A DNA stretch of 64,000 bases from Pantoea sp. Lij88 (GTDB taxonomy: Bacteria > Pseudomonadota > Gammaproteobacteria > Enterobacterales > Enterobacteriaceae). Under the pieces are notes generated by a model. The model searched no databases and had not been told where the DNA came from. It saw only the letters and a program-made list of their open reading frames with translations. Location: NCBI RefSeq assembly GCF_030062155.1, contig NZ_CP118269.1, forward strand, positions 2,356,001 through 2,420,000. The letters are read 5' to 3'. Positions 2,998-27,791 of this stretch are shown in pieces. Numbering within the stretch: the first letter of the stretch is position 1; each line of letters opens with the position of its first letter. The translations under genes and the position numbers were made by a program.

Positions 2998-3606
2998 CTA
3001 CTCCGCCAGCATTGATCTCAATCGGTTGAGCCAGGACTCCGTATTGTTCAGCAACTCACAACTGAGATTTTCAATGGTCATGTGTTGCGCCATTGAGGCA
3101 CGGCGCAGCAGGCTGTAGGCGTCATCCTCCTCCAGCCGAAGCGCAGACATCACCCGCAGCTGCGCGGAAAACAGAAACTTCCGTGCGCGAAGTCGCTCCT
3201 CCTGCCGTCGGAGTTGCGCTTCAAGCTGGCTGATGTGTGCAGCATGGTAGAGCGCCAGCGTAAAAGCAGTCATCACACCATCAAAGCGCACCGGTTTACG
3301 CATATAGCTGTCGATCTTCTGTTCGGCAATCCACTGTAAACGCGACGGCGTTTCAATGGCGGTCAGCGCAATCTTTGGCAGCGCGGGCCAGGGAAGCGGG
3401 TTCGTGGGGTGAAACAGGGTGGAGTTATCGCCGTCGAACACCAACAGCTGCTGGTCAGCCAGCTGGTTCTCGTCCGGAAACGCCGCACAGAACAGGCCCT
3501 CAATCCCTATGCGGCTAAACTGCTGCGCCAGATGGTGGTTATCACGGTCGGAACAGCCGATCACACAGACTTTTAATCCGCGCATCTGCACGTTTTTTCG
3601 GCTCAT
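2998..3606 (-). CDS. AmiR/NasT-type ANTAR-domain antiterminator
   Basis: 202 residues. The N-terminal part (about 1-125) is a degenerate receiver-like domain, a coiled-coil-like stretch follows (SQLEAQLRRQEERLRARK), and the C-terminal 60 residues form an ANTAR RNA-binding domain (FLFSAQLRVMSALRLEED...LLRRASMAQHMTIENLSCELL). In Pseudomonas AmiR this architecture binds a leader RNA and prevents termination, and is held inactive by AmiC. Its ATG overlaps the stop of the AmiC-like gene (ATGA), matching the amiC-amiR order. It is the last gene of the operon. The likely RNA target is the leader of the permease gene at 8018-8144. The start could be a few codons later (Met8). Confidence 0.85.
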   Translation of the reverse strand: MSRKNVQMRGLKVCVIGCSDRDNHHLAQQFSRIGIEGLFCAAFPDENQLADQQLLVFDGDNSTLFHPTNPLPWPALPKIALTAIETPSRLQWIAEQKIDSYMRKPVRFDGVMTAFTLALYHAAHISQLEAQLRRQEERLRARKFLFSAQLRVMSALRLEEDDAYSLLRRASMAQHMTIENLSCELLNNTESWLNRLRSMLAE

Positions 3607-4760
3607 GCGGGACCTCCGCGCTGCATGAGGCTCGCGAGATCCACCCAGGCCAGCCAGGGATCGGGTTCCACCGGCGCATCAGCCTGCCAGAAACTCTCCA
3701 GCCTGCCGTTGTGGCAACGCGCCAGATGCGGGGTCAGCCAGCAGTGATTATTCCCGGCGTTAAGGCGGATCCGCCCGGCTGGCGAATCCATTTCATCCTG
3801 TAATACCGCATTGCGCACACCTTCGACGTCATCATTGCCGTGGCTCGCAATGGCTCTCGCCAGCAAATGTCCGGCCAGCCAGGCACTCTCGCTATCCACT
3901 GACGGCGAAACATGCTCACCAAAGCGTTGGTGATAGCTGCTCAGAAAACGCCGGTTGGCGATGCTGTCTATCGACTGAAACCAGCTTGCCGAAACCAGAT
4001 ATCCCTCTAACGCTTCTGCGCCGATTAACTTAACTTCCGGTTCACACAAGGTCAGGCTGAGCTTGAGCACCTCGTTTAACCACGGCTGCTGCTGGCAGGC
4101 CTGATGCCAGGCGCGATAAAAACTGTAGGCGCTTTTCCCGACCAGGGTATTCAGGAGGACTTTCGGCCGGCAGGCGATGATATCGGCGATTAACGTCTCG
4201 ACATCTTCTTCGCCCATCGGCAGTAATTTACTTTGCAGCACGCTGCCGCCCGCAGGGATAACGGCTTCACGGGTGATGCGATCCATCTCCCAGGACCAGA
4301 CATAGTTTGAACCGATGTGATAGATCTCCGCCGCCTGCTGCTGCAGGAGCCAGCTAAGCATCGGCAAAATATGCTGATTAGGGGTGGCACCCAGGTAAAT
4401 CACGCTATTGCTGCTCTCAAATCCCTCATAGCGCGCGGAGTGCCACAGCAGCGCGTTGGCCCCTTCGATCAACGGCAGAATGGTCTTACGCGCCGCGGAC
4501 GTGTAGCAGCCAATTACATGACGCACACCGTGGCGATAGAGTAAGTCGTGGCAATATTCGTAGTAGAGATCCAGCGAACCCTGCGGATCGCGGATCACGG
4601 GCGCAAGGGTAAATTGATGGGCGGGATTGGCGTTTATCTCCTCAATTGCCAGCAGAATGCCGTTGAGCATCTCACGCCCGATAACCGCATAATCGCCAGA
4701 AACAGAATAGAGAATACCGACCGGAATAACGCGTTTAGGCAGCGGCTGAGTGACAGACAT
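3603..4760 (-). CDS. AmiC-like amide sensor / periplasmic-binding-fold negative regulator
   Basis: 385 residues, the same length as Pseudomonas AmiC. Type I binding-protein fold without signal peptide, so cytoplasmic: it starts IPVGILYSVSGDYAVIGREMLNG and contains RDPQGSLDLYYEYCHDLLYRHGVRHVIGCYTSAARK, the ligand-pocket region of the AmiC/UrtA group. By analogy it binds the inducer (small amide or related compound) and releases the AmiR-like protein encoded next to it. The start ATG at 4760 has AGGAGC six bases upstream; the longer frame from 4826 overlaps the nitrilase gene and has no such site. The ligand cannot be told from sequence. Confidence 0.85.
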   Translation of the reverse strand: MSVTQPLPKRVIPVGILYSVSGDYAVIGREMLNGILLAIEEINANPAHQFTLAPVIRDPQGSLDLYYEYCHDLLYRHGVRHVIGCYTSAARKTILPLIEGANALLWHSARYEGFESSNSVIYLGATPNQHILPMLSWLLQQQAAEIYHIGSNYVWSWEMDRITREAVIPAGGSVLQSKLLPMGEEDVETLIADIIACRPKVLLNTLVGKSAYSFYRAWHQACQQQPWLNEVLKLSLTLCEPEVKLIGAEALEGYLVSASWFQSIDSIANRRFLSSYHQRFGEHVSPSVDSESAWLAGHLLARAIASHGNDDVEGVRNAVLQDEMDSPAGRIRLNAGNNHCWLTPHLARCHNGRLESFWQADAPVEPDPWLAWVDLASLMQRGGPA

Positions 4761-4806
4761 AATAGCTCCTGAATCAACGCGGCCCACCACAGGCCGCGTC
4801 TTGGGG

Positions 4807-6513
4807 TCATCGCGGTGGTTTAGCAACCAGCGCCGTGTAGTAATGCGGCTGACGCATCAGCACCAGGTCTTTACGTCTGACAACATGATCGGGATATGAC
4901 GTACCGGCTGATCCCGTGGAGATATTCAGCACCGCCAGCCCCTTCGCACCGGTCGCTTTCGCTTCCTGACGCGGAAAAGCAAACGTATCGGGGCCAAATA
5001 TCCCGCTCAGACCAAAGCTTTCGCCTTCCGCGGCTGGCCAGTTAGCAAACGCCAGCCAGACGTTGTTCTCACCCGCGCGAACGCGCGGCAGCAGCCAGTG
5101 GTAAGGATCGGCGCCGCGCGGAATCGGCCAGACGTGGGGGATCGCCGTGCCTGCGTGCGCCATGGGCGCAGGTGAATGAAGCCGCGCCGGACAGGCAATG
5201 ATGTCGCAGCCTTCCAGCGCCAGAATCCGTGCGGCTTCCGGCACCAGCAGATCCTCACCCAGCAAAATACCGACCCGCCCGCAGGGCAGATCGCACGTCA
5301 CCCATTGATTGCCTGCGCTGGCCCAGTGCCGATCCTGGTCACTGACATGAATCTGCCGATAATGGGCACTCAACCCCTCACTACTCACCAGCACCGCGCT
5401 GTTATAGCACTGCTCCCCTTCCTGTTCGGCGAACCCCACCAGCAGCGCGATATCCAGTTCCATTGCCAGCGCGATCAGCGCCTGTACAGGCGCATCATCC
5501 CGTTTAAGTGCATAGCGGCTACCGTCACCACCGGTCAGCGCGCGTTCCGGCAATACCAGCAGCTCTGCGCCGCCCGATTTCGCCTCTTCGGCCTTCTGCC
5601 GAATCTGTGCCAGATTGGCATCAACATCGTCTTGCGGACGAAACTGCGCCACCGCAATGCGTGAAGCTTTACCGTCGGGCAAGGGATTACGGCCATATAA
5701 GCCAAAAAAGTCCCCTGGATTCCAGAAGAACGTGTTGGTCATCAAACGCTGATACAGCTCAGGCCGACGTTTATTCAGTTGCGGATTCTGCTCTGGAAGG
5801 GGTAATTCAGCACTGAGTATTCGATCGCCGCTGTCGCAACTGGCCAGCAGATGTCCGTGGCTATCCACGATACAACTGCCGCCGCTGAACTGCACGCCCC
5901 GCTCCCATCCCCAGCGGTTACTTTCAATCAGCGCACAGCCATTCTCCCAGGCGCGCGTAAGCCAGTAAGGCGCTGGCGTGCGTTCAGCCAGCCAGTTGCT
6001 GATGTGGCAGATAATTTGCGCCCCACCCAGCGCGGCCAGCCGGGCGGTTTCAATAAAGTGAATATCCATACAGATCAACAGCGCGATATTGCCGATCTCC
6101 GTCTGAAATACCTGATGACCGCTATCACCATTCGCCGCCCATTTCGGTTCTGAAATATAGGGATGAGTTTTACGATGAACGCCGATTACGCCCTGCGGCC
6201 CGACCAGAATGGCGCTGTTATAGTAGAGGTCGGTGACCGTGTCCCGCTCCGGCATGCCGAAGACCAGAAAGCAGTTAAACTCCCGCGCAATGGCAGCAAA
6301 TGCCTGGCTGGTGGCACCGTCCGCCGTTTCGACATAGGGGGCGACTTCCGCGCGATCCAGCCAGCAGTAACCGGTGGTGGCCATTTCCGGCATAACGATC
6401 AAACGCGCGCCACCCCGCGCGGCCTGGGTTGCCAGTGCCAGCAGGCGAGCAACGTTCTCCTCTTTTCTGAACTGCGTGGGTTCAAACTGGATGGTTGCAA
6501 CATTGATGCGCAT
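4807..6513 (-). CDS. Tandem nitrilase-superfamily amidohydrolase with one intact and one dead domain
   Basis: 568 residues, twice the usual length, because two carbon-nitrogen hydrolase domains are fused. Domain 1 (about 1-275) has the full triad: Glu43 in MPEMATTGY, Lys115 in HRKTHPY, Cys148 in LICMDIHF. Domain 2 (about 284-560) keeps Glu323 in LPERALTGG, but Lys is Gln387 (HYRQIH) and the nucleophile Cys is Gly419 (ILLGEDLL), so it cannot work by the family mechanism. The enzyme probably hydrolyses an amide or nitrile brought in by the permease whose stop codon overlaps its start (TAATG). The substrate is not known. Domain 2 may be structural or regulatory. Confidence 0.88.
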   Translation of the reverse strand: MRINVATIQFEPTQFRKEENVARLLALATQAARGGARLIVMPEMATTGYCWLDRAEVAPYVETADGATSQAFAAIAREFNCFLVFGMPERDTVTDLYYNSAILVGPQGVIGVHRKTHPYISEPKWAANGDSGHQVFQTEIGNIALLICMDIHFIETARLAALGGAQIICHISNWLAERTPAPYWLTRAWENGCALIESNRWGWERGVQFSGGSCIVDSHGHLLASCDSGDRILSAELPLPEQNPQLNKRRPELYQRLMTNTFFWNPGDFFGLYGRNPLPDGKASRIAVAQFRPQDDVDANLAQIRQKAEEAKSGGAELLVLPERALTGGDGSRYALKRDDAPVQALIALAMELDIALLVGFAEQEGEQCYNSAVLVSSEGLSAHYRQIHVSDQDRHWASAGNQWVTCDLPCGRVGILLGEDLLVPEAARILALEGCDIIACPARLHSPAPMAHAGTAIPHVWPIPRGADPYHWLLPRVRAGENNVWLAFANWPAAEGESFGLSGIFGPDTFAFPRQEAKATGAKGLAVLNISTGSAGTSYPDHVVRRKDLVLMRQPHYYTALVAKPPR

Positions 6514-8006
6514 TATTCTGCCTCCTTGCTCAGTAACGGATTAAATACCGGTTTCGGTCCCTGGTAAGCATCGGAGGGTTTCCAGTTTGTTTGCATATCT
6601 TCAGGGAAGGTTTTGAAGTAATAGCTGCCGCGGGTGGCCACGCTGATCGCGACATGCAGCACAGGGCCAACCAGCATGGCAATAAACGAGGCGTACACCA
6701 TCGGATAGAGGCCTAGCACGCCCGCCGCGCCGATTGCAACAGCGACGCACAACGCAATGACGCCGGACGGGTTCCACATACGCAGATACGCTTTGCGGAA
6801 CTCCACGAAATCAGATGGCGCAAGGTGCAGCACTTTGCGGCAGATAAAGTAATCAGCAAGGATAATAAATACCCAGGTGTTGGTGAGAATGCCGGTAATG
6901 GACAGGAAAGTGCCGGTGTACTGCAGGATATTGCAGATATAGAACACCACGCCGAGCAGCCAGACCAGTAACATCCACCACTGACGCCCAGGCCGATAGT
7001 TAAACGCCATATCCATGGTATTCGACAGTGCAATTGAACCTGAGTAGAGATTGAGCACGTTAATGCGGATCTGGGTAATCACCGCAAATAACACGCCGGT
7101 CAGACCAATAATCAGCGGGAAGACGAAGCCCGGATCGAGCGCCAGCGACCAGACATCTTCGCCCTGAATATGCGGCATCAGGGTATAGGCCATAAAGGCG
7201 CCAAACAGCATGACCACGACAATCGGGATCAGCATCCCCAGCATGATCGTTGCGGTGCCTTTATGACTGATGCCCGGACGGGCAAAACGACCGTAGTCGG
7301 TGGCCATCAGGCCCTGAAAAACAATCTGCCCGTTGGCCATATTCATCACCAGCCACAATGCGTTACTGTCGACCTCCCCTTTTGGCTGCCAGCCGCTGAA
7401 GCTGACCGCCGGATAGTGGTGCGTTAATTGCCAGATACAAAAGCCAAACAGCACAATGAAAATGGGAACGCCCCAGGTTTGCAGAAATTGCATTGATGAC
7501 ATGCCTTTCCAGACAAACCAGATGGCGGCCAGCCCCATCAGCGCAAAGATGGCGATACCGATCGGGGAGTTGACCGGCACGCCCGCATAGTTGGCGATGG
7601 CGTGGGAAACAATGGTGCCTTCGAACAGGAAATAGAAAATGAAGTTCACCGCGTAAATCAGCGAGGTGACGGCTGAGCCCATATAGCCAAACCCCAGGCC
7701 GCGCGTCATCAGATTGAGTGAAAGTCCCTCTTTGCTCGCCATCTTCATAATGCATGAGCCAATCAGGGTGGCGAACACCACCATATAACCTATCGGCAGC
7801 AGCAACATTGGCCAGCCGACCTGGTAGCTCATGTCCGCGCCAAGGCTGAACCAGAACATAGCGGTAGAGTTGCCAAGCAACACCAGAATAATGGCCGGGA
7901 TGGGCCAGCGATAGTGCGACGGCACGCGGCCAACCGCGTAATCCTCAACGGCCTCTGCTTCGGTGATATCCTGCGGCCCCTGAAACCAAGCTTTCAACTT
8001 ATTCAT
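6513..8006 (-). CDS. NCS1-family (cytosine/purine/hydantoin type) permease
   Basis: 497 residues with about 12 membrane segments, starting after a 35-residue cytosolic N terminus (VPSHYRWPIPAIILVLLGNSTAMFW). Length, the N-terminal Trp/Pro-containing motif and the overall pattern fit the nucleobase:cation symporter-1 family, inner-membrane importers of cytosine, purines, hydantoins or related N-heterocycles. It is the first gene of the operon and sits directly behind a leader with terminator; GGAG lies 8 bases before its ATG and touches the terminator T run. Context with a nitrilase and an amide sensor suggests uptake of a nitrogen source, possibly an amide or a ring compound. The exact substrate is open. 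Confidence 0.85.
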   Translation of the reverse strand: MNKLKAWFQGPQDITEAEAVEDYAVGRVPSHYRWPIPAIILVLLGNSTAMFWFSLGADMSYQVGWPMLLLPIGYMVVFATLIGSCIMKMASKEGLSLNLMTRGLGFGYMGSAVTSLIYAVNFIFYFLFEGTIVSHAIANYAGVPVNSPIGIAIFALMGLAAIWFVWKGMSSMQFLQTWGVPIFIVLFGFCIWQLTHHYPAVSFSGWQPKGEVDSNALWLVMNMANGQIVFQGLMATDYGRFARPGISHKGTATIMLGMLIPIVVVMLFGAFMAYTLMPHIQGEDVWSLALDPGFVFPLIIGLTGVLFAVITQIRINVLNLYSGSIALSNTMDMAFNYRPGRQWWMLLVWLLGVVFYICNILQYTGTFLSITGILTNTWVFIILADYFICRKVLHLAPSDFVEFRKAYLRMWNPSGVIALCVAVAIGAAGVLGLYPMVYASFIAMLVGPVLHVAISVATRGSYYFKTFPEDMQTNWKPSDAYQGPKPVFNPLLSKEAE

Positions 8007-8017
8007 AGATTTACTCC

Positions 8018-8055
8018 AAAAAAAAGCCCTGCCGACAGCATTGCCGGTAGGGCTT
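8018..8055 (-). terminator. Leader terminator before the NCS1 permease (attenuator)
   Basis: On the minus strand AAGCCCTACCG pairs with CGGCAGGGCTT (one A-C mismatch), with up to three more inner pairs, and is followed by eight T. The T run ends directly at the GGAG of the permease gene. An intrinsic terminator between promoter and first gene is the classic target of ANTAR antiterminators, and the operon encodes one. Confidence 0.8.
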
Positions 8056-8106
8056 CTTCGCCTGAAATCGATGTTGTGGAGTGGCGGGTCGCCACAAGCC
8101 GCTTAC

Positions 8107-8122
8107 CAGGCTACGGTGCCTG
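8107..8122 (-). promoter_or_regulatory. ANTAR-type hexaloop RNA hairpin in the permease leader
   Basis: Minus strand CAGGC-ACCGTA-GCCTG: a 5-bp stem with a six-base loop that has A at position 1 and G at position 4, the hallmark of RNA sites bound by ANTAR proteins (EutV, NasR, AmiR). One base upstream lies another perfect hairpin, TCCTG-CCTGG-CAGGA (8124-8138), in the place of the expected partner hairpin, but its loop does not follow the A1/G4 rule. Confidence 0.6.
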
Positions 8123-8155
8123 TTCCTGCCAGGCAGGATGCGGTAACTTTCAGAA

Positions 8156-8172
8156 AGCAATTACTGCGCCAA
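8156..8172 (-). promoter_or_regulatory. Sigma-54 (RpoN) promoter upstream of the permease leader
   Basis: Minus strand TTGGCGCAGTAATTGCT matches the RpoN consensus TTGGCACGnnnnTTGCW at all but two positions. The invariant GG and GC are ten bases apart as required. Transcription would start near 8144-8145, giving a leader of about 138 nt that holds the hairpins and terminator. RpoN use fits nitrogen-limited control. I found no convincing NtrC site further upstream (8173-8342), and nothing else recognisable there. Confidence 0.65.
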
Positions 8173-8342
8173 CTGTTAAAACAGCGGAGTATGGCGGTGA
8201 AGAGGCCTGATGGGGAGATGAATGCGCATGATGTCAGTGCAGCGCGCACCATTGTGATACAGACGCTCTGAGCGTGATTTCACGCCACACCGGGGTCAAT
8301 AACTGGTCGAACTTCAAGCAAAATGCCTCCGCAGGCACCTGT

Positions 8343-9251
8343 TCAGCCATGGATAAACTGCGTCTCACACTGCCGGGCGATCTCCCACAGTCTGTTACGG
8401 ATGACCTGCTTAAGTTGCAGAGTGGACTGCGACTGAGGCTGGTCACGACGACTGATCAGCATCACTTCAAACGGCAGGGGCTGCGCGATAGGCAGCAGTT
8501 TTAACTGTTCGGCATAGCGACAGGCAGTGAAGAGATCCACGACGCCCGCGCCGCCGCCTGCCAGCACCATATCCGCAATGACCGAGTAGGTTTTGATCGA
8601 CAGCGAGACGGCCGGGTTCAGTTTTTTATCGCGCAGCGCACGATGCAGTACGCGCCCCAGCGGATCCTGCGCCTGCATCATCAGTAAATTATTGTTGCAC
8701 AACCACTCCAGCGTAACGGGTTCATGCCGGGGATGATGGAGCGGTAACAGCGCCACCATCGAGGACTGGAACAGAGGTTCAGCCAGCAGATCCGCATCGA
8801 CCTGCTGACCAAAAACCAGCGCGAAGTCGAGCTGATTCTCCAGAATCATCTGGCATAAGGTACTGAAGTGCTCGGTGACCAGTTCCACACTGACGGAGGC
8901 CATCTGTTGCCGCCAGGTGACCAGCGCAGGAGCCATCACCATCTGACCAAACGCGTGCGCCGCCCCGACGCGGACTAATTGCCCTTCGCCACGCCGCAGC
9001 TGCTCGGTGAGCTGGGTGATAGATTGCAGGCGCTGGCAGAGATCCTCTATTTCAGGCAGCAGGCGTCGCCCTTCTGCCGTCACACTCATTCCCTGTAGCC
9101 GTCGCTCAAACAGCGCAAATCCCAGCTGCTGCTCAGCGTGATTCAGCACACGGCTGATATTCGGCTGCGACACATTCAGCAGGCGCGCCGCTGCACTGAT
9201 GCTGCCGGTCTGTACGATGGCCTGAAAGACCTCTATATGGCGGAGCCGCAT
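8343..9251 (-). CDS. LysR-family transcriptional regulator
   Basis: 302 residues, a standard LysR length. The N-terminal winged helix-turn-helix (about 1-60) shows RHIEVFQAIVQTGSISAAARLLNVSQ and NISRVLNHAEQQLGFALFER; residues 90-300 are the effector-binding domain (VRVGAAHAFGQMVMAPALVTW). It lies downstream of the D-aminopeptidase end of the peptide operon, same strand, 137 bp apart. It may regulate that operon: LysR-type regulators are known next to DgcN/DgcA genes. It could instead act on the permease operon behind it. The inducer is not predictable. Confidence 0.9.
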   Translation of the reverse strand: MRLRHIEVFQAIVQTGSISAAARLLNVSQPNISRVLNHAEQQLGFALFERRLQGMSVTAEGRRLLPEIEDLCQRLQSITQLTEQLRRGEGQLVRVGAAHAFGQMVMAPALVTWRQQMASVSVELVTEHFSTLCQMILENQLDFALVFGQQVDADLLAEPLFQSSMVALLPLHHPRHEPVTLEWLCNNNLLMMQAQDPLGRVLHRALRDKKLNPAVSLSIKTYSVIADMVLAGGGAGVVDLFTACRYAEQLKLLPIAQPLPFEVMLISRRDQPQSQSTLQLKQVIRNRLWEIARQCETQFIHG

Positions 9252-19995: not shown

Positions 19996-20073
19996 AAAAA
20001 TTCCTTTTCAATTACGTGGGAGAAAAAACTCTACTACATTTCATAGTCATTTTTCTCTGTTGCGCAGCAAGAG

Positions 20074-20316
20074 CTAAGGACCAAAATAGTGCATTAATGT
20101 ATCCATATCATTCCAGTCATCTTGTGTAAGTGGCTGTTTCTCCATGCTGTCAAATTTATGTCTGATACCTTTCATTGGAATTGAGTACTCATTTTTTGTT
20201 GCTAAATCCATTAACAGGGCAATATCAGCCTGATTTTTTAAAGTGCGGGTTAAAAGATTCAGTAACATCATTTCAGCGTCTTTTCTCTCTGGAACACACA
20301 TTTTTAACTCATCCAT
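20074..20316 (-). CDS. Small hypothetical protein (80 aa)
   Basis: Not recognised. 80 residues, predicted mostly helical and charged, no signal peptide or membrane segment (MDELKMCVPERKDAEMMLL...NDMDTLMHYFGP). It follows the T6SS-type accessory genes on the same strand and precedes the ADP-ribosylglycohydrolase gene by 78 bp, so it may be part of the same immunity set. The upstream AATGAGAATCT is only a weak ribosome binding site. Confidence rests on length and composition only. Confidence 0.5.
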   Translation of the reverse strand: MDELKMCVPERKDAEMMLLNLLTRTLKNQADIALLMDLATKNEYSIPMKGIRHKFDSMEKQPLTQDDWNDMDTLMHYFGP

Positions 20317-20546
20317 AGATTCTCATTGAGCGGGATTTAATCCTTCCCAGACTGATATACGTATACACCTCATTTTTCTTGACCTGTTAAGGCCAGGAAA
20401 TTGTTTGCTTTTACTCCAACTCCCCCTCACCGCAGCGATATCAGCCGCATCCTGTCAGGCCTCCAGACTTTGCTTCAGCCCTGACGGGTTTATGATCCAT
20501 TCAGAGCCCTGCCTGGTGTACTAAAAACCTGATTATTTAAGAAAAT

Positions 20547-20933
20547 TCATGGATGATTAATGCCTAACACATCCCTTTCCCATTGAGTTTCTTTTTCACT
20601 TTTTGTTCTCAGCCTGACAATCATAACACCCAGAACTTTAGTCTGTTTATCATTGAGATAGAGTTCAAAACCATAGTGCCTGTCATAACCAGCTAAAATA
20701 TATACATAGCATCCCTGATAGAGACTAAGATTTTCTTTTAACGAGACACTTCCTATAACCTCGCCCCCCATATTTTTGACGCCAATGAGATGAATATCAA
20801 TTTCTTCCTTTGCTCTGCCCGTCATAATGCTCCTTGAAAAAAAAGACTCTATATTTTGAAAATCTATATAATGACGTAACAAATCTGGAGCCAGGAAATA
20901 TAAAAGCTTTTTGTCTGAATTATTTACTGTCAT
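20547..20933 (-). CDS. Hypothetical protein, candidate orphan immunity protein (128 aa)
   Basis: Not recognised. 128 residues, cytosolic, with a beta-rich central part (IDIHLIGVKNMGGEVIGSVS, YVYILAGYDRHYGFELYL). A strong site, AGAGGGG, lies six bases before the ATG at 20933, so this is a real gene. Small size, A+T-rich codons and its place among T6SS-linked orphan genes suggest an immunity protein without its toxin. No toxin gene is next to it. Confidence 0.6.
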   Translation of the reverse strand: MTVNNSDKKLLYFLAPDLLRHYIDFQNIESFFSRSIMTGRAKEEIDIHLIGVKNMGGEVIGSVSLKENLSLYQGCYVYILAGYDRHYGFELYLNDKQTKVLGVMIVRLRTKSEKETQWERDVLGINHP

Positions 20934-21371
20934 AGTAAACCCCTCTTTATTACTCTTGAAATCTTAAGAGTTAAATGTCGAGTAAAAGTAGCTCATCAAA
21001 AAAAATGGACTCAATAAAAGTGTAAGTAACTTCCAGAAAAAATTGATAAACTTAAGACCTTTACACTATCGAAATACAATCTACAACCTAATGTTATGAC
21101 CTCACAACTATATTTATTCGCCCGTTAATTATTAGATAGATATAAACAATTAGCCCACTTAGCATTTCACTTAACTATATGCTATAATCAAGAGCATAAG
21201 AGATATTTCAGCTAAATCAGGCGGTATTTTGCATCCTGAAAGATCAAGAAACTAAATTTATGGCTTAAAAAACACATCATCCTTCATATTAATATCATCG
21301 TGAATTTAATAGCATTCACAATCACGCCTCTTATCCTGTTTCGTTATTGTTAAAAGTTATTTTTATTAATT
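20934..21371. other. Gene-free A+T-rich spacer
   Basis: 438 bp of A+T-rich DNA between two orphan genes. I see no open frame of note, no recognisable gene remnant, no terminator-type hairpin and no mobile-element end. It presumably holds the promoter of the downstream orphan gene at 20547-20933. Confidence 0.5.
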
Positions 21372-21818
21372 CTATTTATCGGGTGCAGAACGATAGTGAC
21401 AATTGACTGTAGCCGTTCTGTTATAAACGTCATAAGCTACACCAATGCTACCCCAGACCCCGTTTAAAGGTAATGAAGATCTCGTTTGTTCCTTAAACCA
21501 ACGTTTTAACCTTTGAGTTACGTTCCCAGCCAGGCTTTCCTGCTCGCCTGCCAACAATTTGTCTGGTGCAAAGTTCCAGTGCGATATTGCAACGTCTGAG
21601 TTACCTGACTCAAAAAAACTGACAACCAAATAAATATCGCCGCTATTAGTTTTTTTAAGCGGAAAAACACTTCTGTATGAAACTGTATTTCCACCATTAT
21701 CTGGCCATGCCTCCCAGGTAAATCCAGGGATTGACATTAACTCCTGCTTTGTTATTTTTGGGTTCAAACTCAAAGAATCATTAAAAACCAGCTCTCCAGT
21801 TGCGTATTTTAAGCTCAT
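21372..21818 (-). CDS. Hypothetical protein, candidate orphan immunity protein (148 aa)
   Basis: Not recognised with confidence. 148 residues, no signal peptide, Trp-rich and beta-rich (FTWEAWPDNGGNTVSYRSVFPL, IYLVVSFFESGNSDVAISHWNF), ending with GVWGSIGVAYDVYNRTATVN and CHYRSAPDK. The closing pattern resembles small proteins often found behind Rhs toxin genes, from memory and not from a search. The ribosome binding site is weak. There is no toxin gene next to it. I read it as an orphan immunity gene; other functions are not excluded. Confidence 0.55.
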   Translation of the reverse strand: MSLKYATGELVFNDSLSLNPKITKQELMSIPGFTWEAWPDNGGNTVSYRSVFPLKKTNSGDIYLVVSFFESGNSDVAISHWNFAPDKLLAGEQESLAGNVTQRLKRWFKEQTRSSLPLNGVWGSIGVAYDVYNRTATVNCHYRSAPDK

Positions 21819-21967
21819 ATTTAAATACTCATCTTTGTTATTACAGATTGAGACAAGATTATAACCCTGCCCTTACCTCTCCATCGACAGGACACTAAAT
21901 TTATTGTGCATTTCACACGATTGCATCATGCTCATTACGGCAATGCGTTGTTAGAACGCGAGCCTGC

Positions 21968-22744
21968 TTATTTATCCGGAACATCACTCCACTTCCCTGT
22001 TTCGGAAAGTATAAGCTTACCATTAACACTAACGGAAAGATTATTGATCACGTTATTAATAATATAATTTGCATCATGATTTCTAAATGTATAGGTGAGA
22101 ATTGGGCAAGAGGCTTTACCACAGTCGCTTTTCATCGCTTTACCTTTCAGTCTGGCAACTGCTCCATCTGACTTTCGAACGCCTTCATAGCTAACATCAT
22201 TGCAATCTGAATCAGTCATACAAAGCGAGGTGATTTTAATCCTGAATTTATTTGTCTCGAAAAAGCGTTCTGTTTTGCTGTTCTTTTTGTGTTCAACAGT
22301 CACAACAGGTGGCGGCACCTTGTCAAAACGCTTCGCCCAGCCAGCAATATCTTCCTGTATTTTCCTTTGCGGTGCGTTAGTGACATAATGCACTTCATTG
22401 TTTTCCGGAGAAAACCACGCAGCATAAATGTCCCCATCAGGCTGTATGACAAATGCTGAAGCCTGTTCAAGATAAAGATCTTTTAGCCAGCCCTCAACGA
22501 ATAAACCACCTTCTTTAGTTTTATGAGGCTCACCAAAAACATCGAAATTCTGATTAAATTCATTGTAATCTTTCCCCAGCACAGATTTCAATCTGGAAAC
22601 AACTGCATGGTTATTAAAGATAGCTGAAATATTACTTAAATTATCATACTGAGACAACGATTGTGAATTCTCAGAAGCCATATCGGCACCTGTTGTGACA
22701 CCTAAGACAATAATCAAAAAAATCACTCTTATAAAGAATTTCAT
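21968..22744 (-). CDS. Secreted hypothetical protein, candidate periplasmic immunity protein (258 aa)
   Basis: Not recognised. 258 residues with a typical signal peptide (KFFIRVIFLIIVLGVTTGADMA). The mature protein has two parts: an N-terminal region with GDIYAAWFSPENNEVHYVTN and a C-terminal region with two close cysteine pairs (SLCMTDSDCNDV and KSDCGKASCPILTY) that could form disulfides in the periplasm. AGGTAATA lies before the ATG. Immunity proteins against periplasm-acting T6SS effectors look like this, but no effector gene is adjacent. Confidence 0.6.
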   Translation of the reverse strand: MKFFIRVIFLIIVLGVTTGADMASENSQSLSQYDNLSNISAIFNNHAVVSRLKSVLGKDYNEFNQNFDVFGEPHKTKEGGLFVEGWLKDLYLEQASAFVIQPDGDIYAAWFSPENNEVHYVTNAPQRKIQEDIAGWAKRFDKVPPPVVTVEHKKNSKTERFFETNKFRIKITSLCMTDSDCNDVSYEGVRKSDGAVARLKGKAMKSDCGKASCPILTYTFRNHDANYIINNVINNLSVSVNGKLILSETGKWSDVPDK

Positions 22745-22954
22745 TATTACCTGCCTGAGAAAATTTAATCGTCAGCGATGTCTCTACATTAATGCCTTGA
22801 ATAGGGGTTAAAGGAAAATCAGTTTCATCGAATCTTTACAGATTTCGATACGCTATTATAATAGTACTCCCTGAAACGAGAGCTCCCGTTCGTTACTGTT
22901 CTGGCTGCAGCAAAACACTGGCATTAAAATCTGTACCCATCCTGAAAATCACAT

Positions 22955-23479
22955 TCAGAGAAAATCAAAATCACGCTTACTTATTTGGCTTTTTGCATAA
23001 TATTTGTAGGAAATCCTGATATTTTCCGCTAACCTCTCGCACGTACTCACCAGGTCTTCTGCGTTCAGTAGGGAGTCAGTGACAATAAAAAATCTCTCAA
23101 CATCGACTTTGTAATCTCCCTCACTGAAAATGACCTTCAGTACATGCGTCTCGGTACCACACCGATATAATGTGAAATCCCAGGGTTTCATGGCTAATTT
23201 CAATTTACTCATCAGTCGTCGTCCTGTAACGTTGACCCTTTCAGTCTCATACCGTTGAAATGAGGCATAATCCCTTCTTATATCCTTAGATAATGCATCA
23301 AGTGCTTCAAAATCACCTGACTGTATCAGCCCTGATATATCCAGCTTAAAATCTCTGCTCACATCAAAGTGAGAGTTTTTGTAGGCATTAGGAAACAAAA
23401 CACTGATTATATAACCCTCTTTAGTTTCAAGAATCGCATAGTCTCCTTTTCTCACGTGAATCAAAACTCCATCGCTCAT
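22955..23479 (-). CDS. Hypothetical cytosolic protein (174 aa)
   Basis: Not recognised. 174 residues without signal peptide, mixed alpha/beta, with MSDGVLIHVRKGDYAILETK at the start. Its ATG overlaps the TGA of a short upstream frame (ATGA), the arrangement usual for toxin-immunity pairs, but only about 20 codons of that frame are open, so the overlap may be chance. GAGAGGG lies upstream. Most likely another orphan immunity gene. Confidence 0.55.
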   Translation of the reverse strand: MSDGVLIHVRKGDYAILETKEGYIISVLFPNAYKNSHFDVSRDFKLDISGLIQSGDFEALDALSKDIRRDYASFQRYETERVNVTGRRLMSKLKLAMKPWDFTLYRCGTETHVLKVIFSEGDYKVDVERFFIVTDSLLNAEDLVSTCERLAENIRISYKYYAKSQISKRDFDFL

Positions 23480-23604
23480 ACCCTTTTACCCTCTCTGGAA
23501 AGGTTACTTACATTTTCACGCCAGACAGAATGCCATTATGAGATTAAAATTTTCGCGTCACAAAGAACGGAGGTGGATTGTCAGAGGTTTTTCCTTAGTA
23601 CCTA

Positions 23605-23988
23605 TTAACACAACTTTTTTCCCTCTATCCAAAGCCCTTCTTTAGAACGACTATGGCCACGTTTAATGAAAGCACAACCAATAATTTCATCACCGATGAT
23701 GAAGCAACTTCCAGAAATAAAGCTATTTTTTAACGGGAAAACAATGACTTTGGCGTTATCTTCAAAGGCTGCTAAACACTTAATCAGGGTATTCAGGCCC
23801 AGGGTATCGCTGATATCAATTTCAGTTGAACGCATTCTGCTTCGATATTGGGGTAATAATAAACTTAGTGATTCCTCATAAGAAACACCAATTTCCAGGC
23901 TATCAGAAAGAAGCATTTCACTCAAAAACTGAGACCAACCCTCTCTTTTTGCTGGCATCGCAGAATGCAGATAGCTTAGATCATCCAT
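23605..23988 (-). CDS. Hypothetical protein, candidate orphan immunity protein (127 aa)
   Basis: Not recognised. 127 residues; the C-terminal half is beta-rich (AKVIVFPLKNSFISGSCF, IIGDEIIGCAFIKRGHS). The start at 23988 was chosen because GGAGG lies nine bases upstream; the frame extends 50 codons further but those overlap a possible effector scar in another frame. Position and size fit an immunity protein. Confidence 0.6.
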   Translation of the reverse strand: MDDLSYLHSAMPAKREGWSQFLSEMLLSDSLEIGVSYEESLSLLLPQYRSRMRSTEIDISDTLGLNTLIKCLAAFEDNAKVIVFPLKNSFISGSCFIIGDEIIGCAFIKRGHSRSKEGLWIEGKKLC

Positions 23989-24116
23989 ATTGCTACACCT
24001 CCCGGTTCTGTTACGATTCCACTGATCAGCGCACCTGCCAGAAATATGAAACGTGGATGGGCCTCCTGAAGCCACTTTTTGAAAGAGTGAAACAGCTCTG
24101 TCAGAGCAGTCGTATT
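23976..24116 (-). pseudogene. Possible scar of an effector C-terminus overlapping the orphan immunity gene
   Basis: A 46-codon frame without start codon, in a different frame from the immunity gene, reads LTELFHSFKKWLQEAHPRF then a hydrophobic run FLAGALISGIVTEPGGVAI and stops 13 bases inside the next gene. Effector genes normally overlap their immunity gene in this way. The frame is short, so chance is possible. Confidence 0.35.
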
Positions 24117-24156
24117 TCAGGCAGAGGGTGATCAACACTTATCTGTTGAATGTCCT

Positions 24157-24432
24157 CTATTGCCAATGATGCAGTAAGACTGACCACATTTCTTTTTCTT
24201 CGGGAATGGCAGTAACTACACTTATGTTCGCTTTTACATATTGCATGTAGGTTTCGTAAATTGCCCTGATTGTCACCGTTTGTTCAGATCGGGATCCTTC
24301 TACCAAACTCAGTAAGCTTTTACGGTAGAACGGTGATTCAACCCTGCTGTTAAAAAACTCGTTTAAATGGTCAAGTACCTCATGGCACGAAGGGTTATCC
24401 ATTTCTTCCTCCGAAAATAACGCTGCTTTCAT
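24157..24432 (-). CDS. Small hypothetical protein (91 aa)
   Basis: Not recognised. 91 residues, acidic, mostly helical by composition (NPSCHEVLDHLNEFFNSRVE, TIRAIYETYMQYVKANISVV), no signal peptide. It lies between two other small orphan genes on the same strand. AAAGAG is the only site upstream and lies somewhat far. Possible orphan immunity protein. Confidence 0.5.
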   Translation of the reverse strand: MKAALFSEEEMDNPSCHEVLDHLNEFFNSRVESPFYRKSLLSLVEGSRSEQTVTIRAIYETYMQYVKANISVVTAIPEEKEMWSVLLHHWQ

Positions 24433-24597
24433 CGCTGACTTATGCTCTTTAAGAAGGCACCTATTACAGACTTAATCATGTTAAACCGGTTGCTATGGTT
24501 TAGTGGAGATCTCACACTGCTTTGAGGTGTAATCCCCATGTGCAAGGCTGAACTTATCTGAAACAATACCTATCTCGGCACATTCCAAATTGCCAGC

Positions 24598-24813
24598 CTA
24601 AAATTTAGCAATGTTAATCCCATCTCTAACCTGGGTTAACAAAATGATTTCATTAGCATCACCCGGGCTGCGTTGAGCTTTGAGCGCTTCGTCCTTACTT
24701 ATTTCAGACTCAATCTCTTTACTGACTAAACTGCCATCATCATATCGGATATAAAAAACCCCATCTCTTATTACGATATCAATACCATAGTTACTAAATA
24801 GAGTCTCGCTCAT
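24598..24813 (-). CDS. Small hypothetical protein (71 aa), possibly shortened by a nonsense codon
   Basis: Not recognised. 71 residues ending AKF and a TAG at 24598-24600. The same frame stays open for 34 more codons after the TAG (to 24493) with protein-like sequence (NLECAEIGIVSDKFSLAHGD). This suggests a longer ancestral protein of about 105 residues cut by one substitution, although chance cannot be ruled out. The start has AAGAGAACGGT upstream. Confidence 0.5.
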   Translation of the reverse strand: MSETLFSNYGIDIVIRDGVFYIRYDDGSLVSKEIESEISKDEALKAQRSPGDANEIILLTQVRDGINIAKF

Positions 24814-25039
24814 ACCGTTCTCTTAAATATTTCAGTTTGAAGGATTGCGCATTGCCGCACTAAGCTCAGGCTTTAAAAACAGACCGGGCTGCCTTTGGGG
24901 GTAACGCTCTGTAAGAGACGAAAGCATTACACGGTGTAACCGTTGTGAGGCTGTACACTCCAGGGACAGATGGTGCTAAGCGGCGTTGTGCTGCCGTTAT
25001 CGTCCTGCTTAATTGGAGATATGTGCAACATCACCTGAT

Positions 25040-25558
25040 TCACTTTTTAGCCGTGATGATCACTTTACTCAGGCAATCCGGATTTCTGACAGCAAAAGAA
25101 AATGTGATTACCTGACCATCCAAATCCGGGGGGGATGTGTAGCTGGTCACTTCATTTTCAGATTGGCCACGAGGATAGTCACTCAACTTAACACCCGGAT
25201 ACTGTTTCCTGACATCATCACGGGTTGTGCATTTACCATCGGGAGAAAAGCTCAGAAAAGGGGCGATGCCGCCTGATGATTTACTGACACGCAACTCAAT
25301 ATCAGTAATACTCGCATCATCTTCCAGTTTGACCGAATTAACCTGATAAACGTTGATGTAGTCATTTTGGGTTTCTAATGTCAGCGCCAGCGGAAACTGA
25401 GTAAGATTTTTCACAGAGAGACTTTTAAGTGAAGCACTCAACTGACGGATAAAGCTCCACATATCTTTATTTTGCATCTTCGCTTTTGCGAACCCGCTAA
25501 ACAGAAAAAAAGTCAGTATTAACAGAACCCTGTTTCTTTGATGTGTCATTTTTTTCAT
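25040..25558 (-). CDS. Orphan paralogue of the VgrG1 immunity protein, periplasmic
   Basis: 172 residues with a signal peptide (NRVLLILTFFLFSGFAKA). It aligns without gaps over its whole length with the protein at 35179-35697, the neighbour of the toxin-bearing VgrG: shared blocks include SITDIELR, APFLSFSP, an identical DYPRGQSENEVTSYTS and the two cysteines (GKC and PDCLSK). Here no toxin gene precedes it, only a short scar that ends one base before the ATG. It probably still protects against a metallopeptidase effector of the same family. The start at 25558 has AAGG upstream and opens the signal peptide. Confidence 0.8.
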   Translation of the reverse strand: MKKMTHQRNRVLLILTFFLFSGFAKAKMQNKDMWSFIRQLSASLKSLSVKNLTQFPLALTLETQNDYINVYQVNSVKLEDDASITDIELRVSKSSGGIAPFLSFSPDGKCTTRDDVRKQYPGVKLSDYPRGQSENEVTSYTSPPDLDGQVITFSFAVRNPDCLSKVIITAKK

Positions 25559-25559
25559 A

Positions 25560-25634
25560 CTAACCCTTGTATTGCTCATCATAGTAGCCCCAGGTGTCAC
25601 ACTCTCCGGAAGGGATAATGGATTGATAACCTCT
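25560..25634 (-). pseudogene. Scar of an effector C-terminus before the orphan immunity gene
   Basis: 24 codons ending CDTWGYYDEQYKG and TAG, one base before the immunity ATG. The VgrG1 toxin domain ends YYGGWYDKNYPTK and is followed by the paralogous immunity gene in the same way. Upstream of these codons the frame is closed by TGA, so the rest of the effector is gone or decayed. Confidence 0.5.
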
Positions 25635-25738
25635 TCACACTCTTATCATCTAAAAGGAGTTAACAGGGCAGGCGGAGGATGGTCGTCTTTAAAGGGTTGT
25701 GTGCGTGCTCACCCAGCAAAAACATAGATGAGCCTCCA

Positions 25739-25897
25739 TCAGTAGATAACAAGTCTCCCGGATGGCCATTGCCCTTCCCATCCACAGGGGATGTGACCAT
25801 TTTCATAAATCACCGTCAGCCGACTAAAAAATGGCTCGTCAGGTAAATATGACTTATAGGCATCTTCAGCAAGAAAACTGACTAAACTCCACTTCAC
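25739..25897 (-). CDS. Small ORF or gene fragment (52 aa)
   Basis: Frame from GTG at 25897 reads KWSLVSFLAEDAYKSYLPDE, then FFSRLTVIYENGHIPCGW and ends GRLVIY. The composition is clearly protein-like, with a folded-domain look (Trp, Gly, hydrophobic end), but there is no ATG or good ribosome binding site. It may be the 3' end of a decayed gene or a small orphan with a GTG start. Not recognised with certainty. It lies in the gap 25559-25965 together with the effector scar. Confidence 0.35.
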   Translation of the reverse strand: MKWSLVSFLAEDAYKSYLPDEPFFSRLTVIYENGHIPCGWEGQWPSGRLVIY

Positions 25898-25965
25898 AAC
25901 TCGCGTTAACAGTAATCAAAGTCAGTATAATTAGCTGGGCTTATAATAATTAAATTTTTATAATA

Positions 25966-26337
25966 TTAGTAAGCTCGTGATAAACGCACCAGTTGATTCG
26001 TTTCAGGATAGAAAGAGAAATGCCAGTCACTCCAGCCATCAAATTTTTCAGTAAAAACGCAAACCACTAATACTTCTTTCTTTGAACCTACTGTCATGTA
26101 GTAGAATGCTCCACCGTCGGGAGATGAAAAAGATGATAAGATTTTACCTTGCGCATTTATTATAGTGAGTCTTTCAGGCAAATTTTTCTTCTGATCAAGA
26201 ACAAATATTAAATCTCTGCTTTCATCAGCTAAAATCTGATCGGCTTCTGAACATGAAAATAAAAATGCTTCTCCCATGTAGTTCCACTTTATAGCGGACT
26301 GATCAGTTAACAACGTTAACTCACTTATCTTTTTCAT
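25966..26337 (-). CDS. Hypothetical protein, candidate orphan immunity protein (123 aa)
   Basis: Not recognised. 123 residues, cytosolic, beta-rich with repeated strand-turn pattern (RDLIFVLDQKKNLPERLTII, GGAFYYMTVGSKKEVLVVCV). A+T-rich codon use like its neighbours. CAGG lies 9-10 bases before the ATG. Likely one more orphan immunity gene; no partner toxin is next to it. Confidence 0.55.
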   Translation of the reverse strand: MKKISELTLLTDQSAIKWNYMGEAFLFSCSEADQILADESRDLIFVLDQKKNLPERLTIINAQGKILSSFSSPDGGAFYYMTVGSKKEVLVVCVFTEKFDGWSDWHFSFYPETNQLVRLSRAY

Positions 26338-26647
26338 ATAAAAAACCTGACTTTGTTACTGGCGAATTATTAGTCAAAAAATTAAATTTTGCGCTCAATT
26401 AAACAAACTTTCATTCTAACTTTCATTGTCAACTCTTATCACCCCTATCAAGGGTAATAATCATGAATGCTATGATGCCTATCTCACTATCCTCGTTGTT
26501 AAAACCAGATCCGCTCAGAATTTCACTCAGTGTTAGACTTATTTTTTCAGAGTAATAATCGTTTCGTTTAAATGGAAATAGCGTGAATGACATGATGTTT
26601 ACATCCTTCTCTTAGCAATAGCCTATGATGTTGCCAGACGATTTGCC

Positions 26648-27054
26648 CTGTAACAATTGCTAGCAGATTTACTGATGCGACGCCCCAACGGATTTTAGCG
26701 GGAACTCACATTAGTGCATGGCATATTGCGGTCCAGCGGTATGCTGAGGAAGTCTGTTGAATTGTGCTTACCATCATAACGGTAGCCTATGGGACTAAGC
26801 CTCATCCTTATCGGTGTTAGGACCTATTGCCAGCGGATATTGTCAGTGAGGTTGTGTGGTATGCATGATGTCAGAACCAGCATGGTAATATAGCGGGTTG
26901 ACCATACTCTCCCAGTTCAACTGTTCATTACAGGGCTGCGCGCATTTCTGTTACAGCAGACGAACGGCGCTATCGAAGTTCAATAATGTCAGGCTGAACG
27001 GATTATCGTCACGCTCTTCAGTGTTGAGGTTATAACCGTAATCGAAGTCGCGCT
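26648..27054 (-). pseudogene. Decayed fragment of an rhs gene
   Basis: About 400 bp align by eye, in order and orientation, with the intact rhs gene at about 30298-30720. Shared anchors are CTGTAACA, TTACTGATGCGACG, CTGTTCATTAC, GCTGAACGGATTATC and CCGTAATCGAAGTC. Many substitutions and small indels destroy the frame. It covers part of the YD-repeat core, without N-terminal PAAR region or toxin end. The flanking 26338-26647 shows nothing recognisable, and 27055-27209 only a short GTTTGAG tandem. Confidence 0.8.
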
Positions 27055-27209
27055 AAAGAAACCTGAATATTACAGGCCTTTCCTCTTAACCAATAGTAAT
27101 CAGGGACCGCTTGCACCTGGTTTGAGGTTTGAGGTTTGGAGAGGTGAAAGGTATGACAGAAGTCGCGGAAAGGGTATTCCGCGATAACAGCACTAAAGAC
27201 CACGATGGG

Positions 27210-27791
27210 TTATTTCATGCGACGCCGCCGGGCCACACTGGCGAGGCGTTGGGTCCGGCAGTAAATGGCAAGCAGGATGAAAGCCTGCCCATTGAGTATC
27301 CAGCGAGCACCCACCAAAGCAGCGAGTGCCAGAAGTAACCACAGGCCCGAGTGGCTGCCCGTAACAACGCTGTAGCTTAAGAGTAAAACGGTCGATATAA
27401 CCAACATTGCCCAGATGTAAACCAGCCCCTGAACACCCGCTGTATGACCTCGCGCAAGCAGATAACTGGCGGTGAGAATCGCGCCAAGAATGACGATTGA
27501 GGGAACAAAAAAACTCAACGCATGTATCTGTGGAGTAAGAGGAGGTAAAGCGTGCAGAAACGTCAGTAAATTAAATGCAAACGCAACCAGTAACAGCACC
27601 AGCACTAGTGCAACCGGGAAGCCGTTCTGCCGGGGAAGCAACTCGGAAGGCTGTTTAAAATAACGCTCAAGCTCTGTAGTGGAACGGGCAAGTATCGAAT
27701 TATCCTGCCGTGCAATTACCTGATCTATTTCGCGACCATGCTGCAGTACTTCAGTGATATTACGCCCAACAAGCCATGATAAAAATTGCAT
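27210..27791 (-). CDS. Membrane protein, candidate immunity to the adjacent gene product (193 aa)
   Basis: 193 residues with about four membrane segments (roughly 60-80, 92-112, 124-144, 149-170) and a basic tail RRRRMK. The N-terminal 50 residues are soluble. Not recognised as a named family. Its ATG overlaps the stop of the upstream gene (TAATG), so the two are translationally coupled. A multi-span protein behind a Gly/Ala-rich hydrophobic one is the usual layout of a pore-forming toxin and its membrane immunity protein, which I infer here. Confidence 0.65.
   Translation of the reverse strand: MQFLSWLVGRNITEVLQHGREIDQVIARQDNSILARSTTELERYFKQPSELLPRQNGFPVALVLVLLLVAFAFNLLTFLHALPPLTPQIHALSFFVPSIVILGAILTASYLLARGHTAGVQGLVYIWAMLVISTVLLLSYSVVTGSHSGLWLLLALAALVGARWILNGQAFILLAIYCRTQRLASVARRRRMK

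Follow-up and report, generated by a model that had tools for sequence, protein, structure and literature searches.

The leader of a four-gene operon in Pantoea sp. Lij88, read on the minus strand of the 64,000-nt stretch of DNA analysed here (the window), carries a sigma-54-like promoter, two ANTAR hexaloop hairpins with G at loop position 4 (P1 and P2) and an intrinsic terminator, and each of these four elements is present in all 15 orthologous leaders. Read together with the gene content, this arrangement very probably reflects two gates in series, in which NtrC and sigma-54 would start transcription and an AmiR-like protein would act at P1 and P2 by ANTAR antitermination. Two-layer control had been predicted in a first-pass annotation of the window, and the conserved leader, the gene content and candidate NtrC boxes now support that prediction; P2, a three-way junction holding P1, the NtrC-like boxes, the long linker between P1 and P2 and the loops with G at position 1 were absent from it. 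Regulation and a likely inducer logic can thereby be assigned to a rare permease-hydrolase operon.

The operon consists of four minus-strand genes with overlapping ends. The first encodes an NCS1-type permease (6513..8006; Transp_cyt_pur by domain search) and the second a tandem carbon-nitrogen hydrolase of the nitrilase superfamily (4807..6513), followed by an AmiC-like amide/urea-type sensor (3603..4826, with the start codon of the ORF list; Peripla_BP_5) and, as last gene, an AmiR-like antiterminator with an AmiR_N pseudo-receiver and an ANTAR domain (2998..3606; domain search). The claim that the operon ends with an ANTAR protein and its AmiC-type sensor therefore stands, with domain scores of 1.3e-100 for the sensor (PF13433) and of 34.9 bits (PF21332) and 31.4 bits (PF03861) for the antiterminator, the latter two above their cut-offs. 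Against solved structures, the AmiC-like protein matched AmiC (1pea, 3.5e-56) and an extracellular ligand-binding receptor (8tg1, 4.4e-67), and the AmiR-like protein matched AmiR (1qo0) only at 0.012. No signal peptide was seen by eye in the AmiC-like protein, which fits a cytoplasmic sensor of the AmiC type. In the hydrolase, the Glu, Lys and Cys of domain 1 (E43-K115-C148) are all kept in 81/81 aligned proteins (the window and the loci of the best 80 of 118 relatives). In domain 2, Gly419 takes the place of the catalytic Cys, and across the same set the Gly is present in 81/81, the Glu in 75/81 and the Lys in 37/81, a pattern suggesting that domain 2 is a conserved partner domain that is probably inactive.

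Conservation and distribution of the leader

The relatives came from a hydrolase scan of a species-genome collection (118 found, best 80 kept), against which the window proteins were compared by tblastn. The four-gene order, together with upstream sequence, was found in 14 loci among these best 80, which with the window gives 15 leaders: Kosakonia sacchari (L009) and K. arachidis (L010); Pantoea anthophila (L011), P. formicae (L012), P. rwandensis (L013), Pantoea SOD02 (L014) and P. rodasii (L019); Biostraticola (L015); Winslowiella (L016); two Alloalcanivorax (L017 and L018); two Mangrovibacter (L024 and L026); and Erwinia JUb26 (L088). Same-genome duplicates were removed before counting (L006=L011, L007=L019 and L008=L014), L033 is cut off upstream, and L099 and L100 stand outside the counts; L099, a closely related 16th leader, agrees with the 15. 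It is conservation in 15 of 15 leaders that decides whether these elements are real, and the outcome named beforehand as refuting the prediction, loss of hairpin and terminator from orthologous operons, was not what was found. A strict hexaloop finder, which required A at position 1 of P1, returned 12 hits in the window and the 80 loci compared with 1 on shuffled sequence (mononucleotide shuffling in 100-nt blocks); ten of these hits fall in 9/15 leaders (two in L018), one lies before the AmiC gene of L041 and one in L076.

Comparison with flanking and synonymous sequence indicates that the leader is under strong constraint among the Pantoea relatives. The leader of the window is 83-86% identical to its counterparts in P. 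formicae, P. rwandensis, SOD02 and P. rodasii, compared with 57-59% for the 100 nt that precede the sigma-54 site and 44-52% at four-fold sites of the NCS1 gene. The seven most distant leaders show little contrast (58-63% to the window, against 44-58% for the upstream flank and 43-52% for the NCS1 four-fold sites), so that the argument there rests on structure and on motif positions. Plain synteny does not account for the conservation of the leader, as a close upstream LysR neighbour occurs only in the window, in L011 (=L006) and in L099. In one case (L030), a locus has the NCS1 and hydrolase genes, lacks AmiC and ANTAR genes, and lacks the leader too.

A leader model (R1), built like the alignment A2 from 13/15 leaders, was used to search more widely. 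In the genome of strain Lij88 itself, where 150/6136 first-look candidates were scored, only the window copy was credible (next hits E 2.65 and 9.38), and further regulon members are not supported. In drawn genome samples, searched under strict filters with about 15 candidates scored per genome, R1 hit 1/369 genomes of the class (our own) and 3/392 of the family (our own, G288 and G876); the G876 leader is identical in sequence to that of Biostraticola. The model missed both Mangrovibacter leaders, and a search of 33 sources that contained 9/15 leaders found 7. By protein, the NCS1 permease was found in 2/394 genomes of the order at E<=1e-100, and AmiR_N in 3/369 genomes of the class at E<=1e-8, a limit at which our own genome is not among them. 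Four regions from the genomes of the AmiR_N search were tried as further targets and gave only one doubtful motif (L106).

Promoter and nitrogen layer

The sigma-54 promoter proposed on the minus strand was recovered by motif scan at 8171-8156 (TGGCGCAGTAATTGCT) and lies at the corresponding place in all 15 leaders, with a predicted +1 at about 8145. Its GG-N10-GC element agrees with TGGCACnnTTnTTGC at 9/11 scored bases in the window and at 9-11/11 across 15/15 leaders. Matches with two mismatches are no more frequent in the whole window (13) than in shuffles (16.2), which places the window site by itself within chance; in its 303-nt upstream region the shuffle probability is 0.04, and per leader it is 0-0.052 over the 15, with the best match in L030 reaching 6 bases. 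In the 13 leaders whose outer stem starts with TA[CT]CGC, promoter and stem start are separated by 9-10 nt, so that the predicted +1 falls at the outer stem.

These promoter data bear on the proposal that the terminator belongs to the upstream LysR-type gene (8343-9251, minus strand), the NCS1 operon using another promoter and the hairpins being incidental. This proposal would agree with the same-strand LysR gene ending 336 bp before the NCS1 start, with the chance-level sigma-54 match in the window taken by itself, and with a weak sigma-70 site that the scan upstream of NCS1, which found none at its threshold, would have passed over; it is nevertheless extremely unlikely, given that the sigma-54 site, P2 and the terminator are kept in 13/14 loci without a close LysR copy, L011 alone having one. 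Separately, DNA about 84% identical to the LysR-type gene is found on Klebsiella and Enterobacter plasmids (19/20 among the matches listed, 24 in all), and the operon DNA had no match on those records at the same search sensitivity. Elsewhere in the window, positions 20001-28000 have a G+C content of 38-44%, compared with 54-60% in the preceding 20 kb, which suggests an acquired region.

For the reading in which nitrogen limitation acts through sigma-54, the sequence upstream of the promoter was compared with the NtrC box consensus TGCACCAnnnTGGTGCA taken from PMC8743547. Two NtrC-like boxes were found on the minus strand: box 1 (TGTATCACAATGGTGCG, 8245..8261), which agrees at 11/14 scored positions (shuffle P 0.028) and is centred about -108 from the predicted +1, and box 2 (TGCACTGACATCATGCG, 8225..8241), which agrees at 9/14 and lies 20 bp from box 1, at about -88. 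Across the 15 leaders, the best matches to TGCACCAnnnTGGTGCA precede the sigma-54 site by 68-166 nt; pairs of matches near -90 and -70, spaced by 20-21 bp, occur in the window and in the Kosakonia and Pantoea leaders (L009-L014 and L019), and both boxes are kept, by eye, in L099. The best match scored at P<=0.03 against shuffles in 11/15 leaders (per leader, uncorrected) and no better than shuffles (P>0.05) in L012, L013, L017 and L026, a result that counts against the main reading. Overall, the candidate boxes upstream of the sigma-54 site lend support to a nitrogen layer.

Junction, P2 and terminator

The full leader of the window folds at -60.1 kcal/mol (z -4.72), and none of 200 dinucleotide shuffles was as stable. 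Its 5' part can form a three-way junction (8099..8143, minus strand) in which the outer stem pairs CCGC (8143-8140) with GCGG (8102-8099) and encloses two arms, Pa (TCCTG-CCTGG-CAGGA, 8124..8138) and the ANTAR hexaloop hairpin P1 (CAGGC-ACCGTA-GCCTG, 8107..8122; A1 and G4); P1 is thus probably one arm of a three-way junction at the predicted +1. Two adjacent hairpins had been noted here at first, and of that claim the ACCGTA ANTAR loop at 8122-8107 stands; the neighbouring hairpin proved to be Pa, a variable structural arm, and the role of second ANTAR hairpin falls to P2 (8062-8051). Between P1 and P2, the energy fold places a spacer hairpin, Pm (GTGGCG-ACC-CGCCAC, 8081..8095), followed by a mostly unpaired stretch up to P2.

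Compensatory changes of the kind looked for in related leaders are present between lineages in both Pa and the outer stem. The stem of Pa is retained as TCCTG/CAGGA, TCAGC/GCTGA, CCGGA/TCCGG or CTGGC/GCCGG, with a variable loop, and in a hand alignment its pairs are canonical in every counted cell (five pairs, four in Mangrovibacter). When the 3' arms of the six arm types were re-assigned, 2/720 assignments equalled the pairing total of the true one, namely the true one itself and a swap between types that share a 5' strand. The outer stem, ACCGC/GCGGT (ACCGC/GCGGN over the leaders), becomes GCATG/CATGC in Mangrovibacter, a two-sided change that preserves pairing; its outermost pair is non-standard in 5/15 leaders, that of the window among them. 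A covariation count on A2, which covers the outer stem and P1 in 12 distinct rows from outside Mangrovibacter, found no two-sided change, with 95.8% of cells paired.

The P1 stem and loop are the part of the junction most conserved in sequence, and the other junction loops vary (hand alignment). G4 of the P1 loop is present in 15/15 leaders, and position 1 is A in 11/15 and G in 4/15. The hairpin reads CAGGC-hexaloop-G[CT]CTG in 13/15 leaders, and in the two Mangrovibacter leaders it has a shorter stem, with one A-G pair in both. Folds ending before P2 contain the junction in 13/15 leaders (not L015 or L018), with fold z-scores from -3.92 to 0.07 and a P1 closing-pair probability of 0.88-1.00, the exceptions being L015 (0.65) and L018 (0.01). 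Read by eye, the junction with P1 appears in 12/15 folds up to P2 and in 9/15 energy folds of the full leader. The folds that lack it speak against the main reading, as do the A2 count, the Mangrovibacter leaders missed by R1 and the small identity contrast of the most distant leaders. A hairpin occupies the Pm place in 14/15 folds (not L015), with varying sequence.

Three-way junctions are common in aptamers, and together with a spacer hairpin kept in place in 14/15 folds this would agree with a leader that is a small-molecule aptamer, a riboswitch governing the terminator, with the ANTAR protein acting elsewhere. We consider this very improbable: junction loops beyond the hexaloop are not conserved, Rfam gave no match in the window at the gathering score and chance-level matches only for the leader by itself, and L030, the sole locus without AmiC and ANTAR genes, is also without the leader.

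P2 (GGC-GAAGAA-GCC, 8051..8062, minus strand; G1 and G4) shares its 3' arm with the 5' arm of the intrinsic terminator (8018..8055), so that the two structures are mutually exclusive by sequence. This overlap, which corresponds to known ANTAR antiterminator logic, occurs in 15/15 leaders, of which a later hexaloop finder recovers 13 (not L024 or L026). P2 reads GGC-[A/G]AAGAA-GCC throughout, with G4 in 15/15 leaders and position 1 as A in 5/15 and G in 10/15. Its stem has three pairs, and some folds lack P2 or show it only in part, which counts against the main reading. The terminator, found in the sequence and the energy fold and originally described with eight T that touch the ribosome binding site, is confirmed as such, and its hairpin is present in the energy folds of 15/15 leaders; a simple terminator scan did not list it, probably owing to its internal mismatch. 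In the window the T run is directly followed by GGAG (8014..8017), with the NCS1 ATG at 8006; T run and GGAG touch in 6/15 leaders (window included) and lie 3-8 nt apart in 9/15. According to the first-pass annotation, their contact could link antitermination with translation.

These elements suggest the following sequence of events. Under nitrogen limitation, phosphorylated NtrC on the paired boxes would activate sigma-54 RNA polymerase at 8171-8156, and the nascent RNA, starting at about 8145, would open with the outer stem of the three-way junction and so present P1. By default the terminator (8055-8018) would form and the transcript would halt before NCS1. Binding of a substrate or product by the AmiC-like sensor would release the AmiR-like protein, whose ANTAR domains would then bind P1 and P2 at the G4 hexaloops; P2 would take the terminator 5' arm, and its stabilisation would prevent termination. 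Read-through would allow permease, hydrolase, sensor and antiterminator all to be made, with P1 acting over a linker of 44-62 nt.

Whether the AmiR-like protein is equipped for such binding was examined against EutV (6wsh), with which its ANTAR domain aligns without gaps at E 1.2. According to this alignment, six of the eleven EutV residues listed in PMC8934654 as contacting the hexaloop hairpin are kept (R142, K143, E160, Y164, R168 and M172) and five differ (K147 to S, K149 to Q, N173 to A, R175 to H and R177 to T). The residues that read or flip G4 (R142, E160, Y164 and M172) are among those kept, which fits the invariant G4 of the loops; K149, near G4, and residues holding the stem backbone are changed. 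A triple change of N173, R175 and R177 in EutV abolished RNA binding (PMC8934654). Hexaloop binding by the AmiR-like protein cannot, on this comparison, be assumed in view of the five changed contact residues, and this counts against the main reading.

Linker length and known ANTAR systems

The P1-P2 linker is 44 nt in the window and in the Kosakonia and Pantoea leaders, 53-59 nt in Biostraticola, Winslowiella, Alloalcanivorax and Erwinia (values that a later finder reproduces to within 1 nt) and 62 nt in the two Mangrovibacter leaders. In eut leaders, linkers are 5-12 nt and 14 nt drastically reduces induction (PMC3369931), extension by 20 nt abolishes EutV antitermination (PMC8934654), and curated actinobacterial ANTAR RNAs have linkers of 2-25 nt (PMC8164766). 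With 44-62 nt in 15/15 leaders, the present linker lies outside both the curated and the eut ranges and is longer than every ANTAR linker that we found in the literature, which counts against the main reading. So does the G at position 1 of the P2 loop in the window, given that a change of A1 lowered eut induction (PMC3369931).

The long linker leads to a narrower alternative, in which both gates work and antitermination uses P2 only, the junction being a 5'-end stabiliser or having another role, e.g., AmiR titration. We regard this as possible, though rather doubtful. The junction begins at the predicted +1, the P1-P2 spacing exceeds published limits, and the minimal motif for ANTAR binding can consist of one hexaloop (PMC8934654); moreover, in three hydrolase-AmiC-ANTAR loci without a close NCS1 gene (L020, L022 and L025), a sigma-54-like site, P2 and a terminator occur without an evident P1. 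Against a role for P2 only stand the P1 stem and loop, best conserved in the junction and invariant at G4, the EutV model, in which contact with both hexaloops is needed (PMC8934654), and rhizobial relatives that retain the hexaloop P1 without a Pa arm.

The rhizobial loci, which carry AmiC, ANTAR, ABC transporter and nitrilase genes (e.g., L029, L041 and L062), resemble the NCS1 leaders by eye: an outer stem (GCGC...GCGC in one example) encloses P1 with its hexaloop, and the hexaloop of P2 lies at a hairpin resembling a terminator. They differ in their sigma-70-like TTGACA, in the lack of a Pa arm, and in their transporter (ABC) and gene order. By script, linkers there measure 32-39 nt in L028, L041, L062 and L063 (for L028 the script took as P1 the hairpin GAGC-AGCGTT-GCTC in a shifted register), and by eye the linker of L034 measures about 65 nt. 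Two further loci (L021 and L023) show, by eye, P2 and a terminator with weaker sigma-54-like sites. This comparison suggests an early origin of the outer stem and long linker within the AmiR-type family, with Pa and sigma-54/NtrC control perhaps marking the NCS1 operons.

A distinct class of ANTAR antiterminator RNA would be defined if both hexaloops are used and P1, carried by a closed outer stem (in the NCS1 operons, as part of a three-way junction), acts on P2 over 32-65 nt of structured linker; we hold this proposal with as much doubt as confidence. If it is true, the published spacing rule is not general, and the geometry of AmiR-type RNA may keep AmiR-type targets apart from NasR targets in the same cell. 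The leader would be a natural, conserved counter-example to that rule, for which a canonical ANTAR target in the same genome serves as a control, and it makes a mechanistic question testable, that is, whether one dimer moves from P1 to P2 or how else both are reached. Our findings also suggest that searches restricted to short linkers would miss such leaders.

The canonical target belongs to a nasR-nasF pair about 22 kb before the window. Two ANTAR proteins in our own genome exceed the Pfam cut-off, and the second is NasR-like (NIT and ANTAR domains), with a nitrate regulatory protein (4akk, 2e-67) as its best solved match; its gene (L098:9607-10821) lies beside a nasF-type gene. The leader of the latter (L098:9490-9367), read by eye, has its own sigma-54-like site and two A1/G4 hexaloops, P1 (CCCGCC-AATGGC-GGTGGG) and, after an 11-nt linker, P2 (GGAT-AAAGGC-GTCC), which overlaps the terminator; the hexaloop finder did not recover it. 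This pair differs from the NCS1 operon in its one-component NIT sensor, its 11-nt linker and A1 in both loops, and no three-way junction was seen. A single cell would thus hold a canonical ANTAR target and a long-linker one. The pair is an internal example of the principle that the earlier remark attributed to Klebsiella nas genes. The Klebsiella nasFEDCBA operon with NasR shares with the present case an ANTAR protein, a nitrogen-source operon and a leader attenuator (PMC7496416, PMC3369936).

Among other known systems, the amidase operon of Pseudomonas aeruginosa is alike in its AmiC-type sensor, AmiR-type antiterminator and leader terminator (PMC3369931, PMC3369936). It has an aliphatic amidase in place of the NCS1 permease and tandem hydrolase found here, and the likeness is drawn from proteins and literature. 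We know of no sigma-54 control of that operon. Enterococcus faecalis eut, with EutV, has a dual hexaloop antiterminator overlapping a terminator (PMC3369931), and differs in its two-component phosphorylation input and in its 5-12 nt linkers with strict spacing (PMC8934654, PMC3369931). NtrC/sigma-54 control joined to ANTAR antitermination is therefore already known from nas, and AmiC/AmiR sensing from the amidase operon; what appears to set the present leader apart is the joining of an AmiR-type pair to sigma-54, together with the three-way junction, the long structured linker and the G1 loops. In the openly accessible main texts searched, we found neither ANTAR control of an NCS1-nitrilase operon nor an ANTAR three-way junction, and the supplementary tables of Ramesh 2012 may list such leaders. 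Neighbours of the present case are already in print, since 66 sigma-54 promoters for ANTAR-protein genes are predicted in PMC12316311 and amiE-amiC-amiR operons are described in PMC13209695.

Two further observations concern other ANTAR targets among the loci collected. AmiC-ANTAR-hydrolase operons of the Yersinia/Klebsiella type (L052, L053, L055-L057, L060, L064, L070 and L078) have a very conserved leader and terminator, and their P2-like loop has, by eye, A at position 4, possibly representing another ANTAR target dialect. In Pseudomonas typographi (L082:640-860), P1, an 11-nt linker, P2 and a terminator occur about 7 kb before the hydrolase gene.
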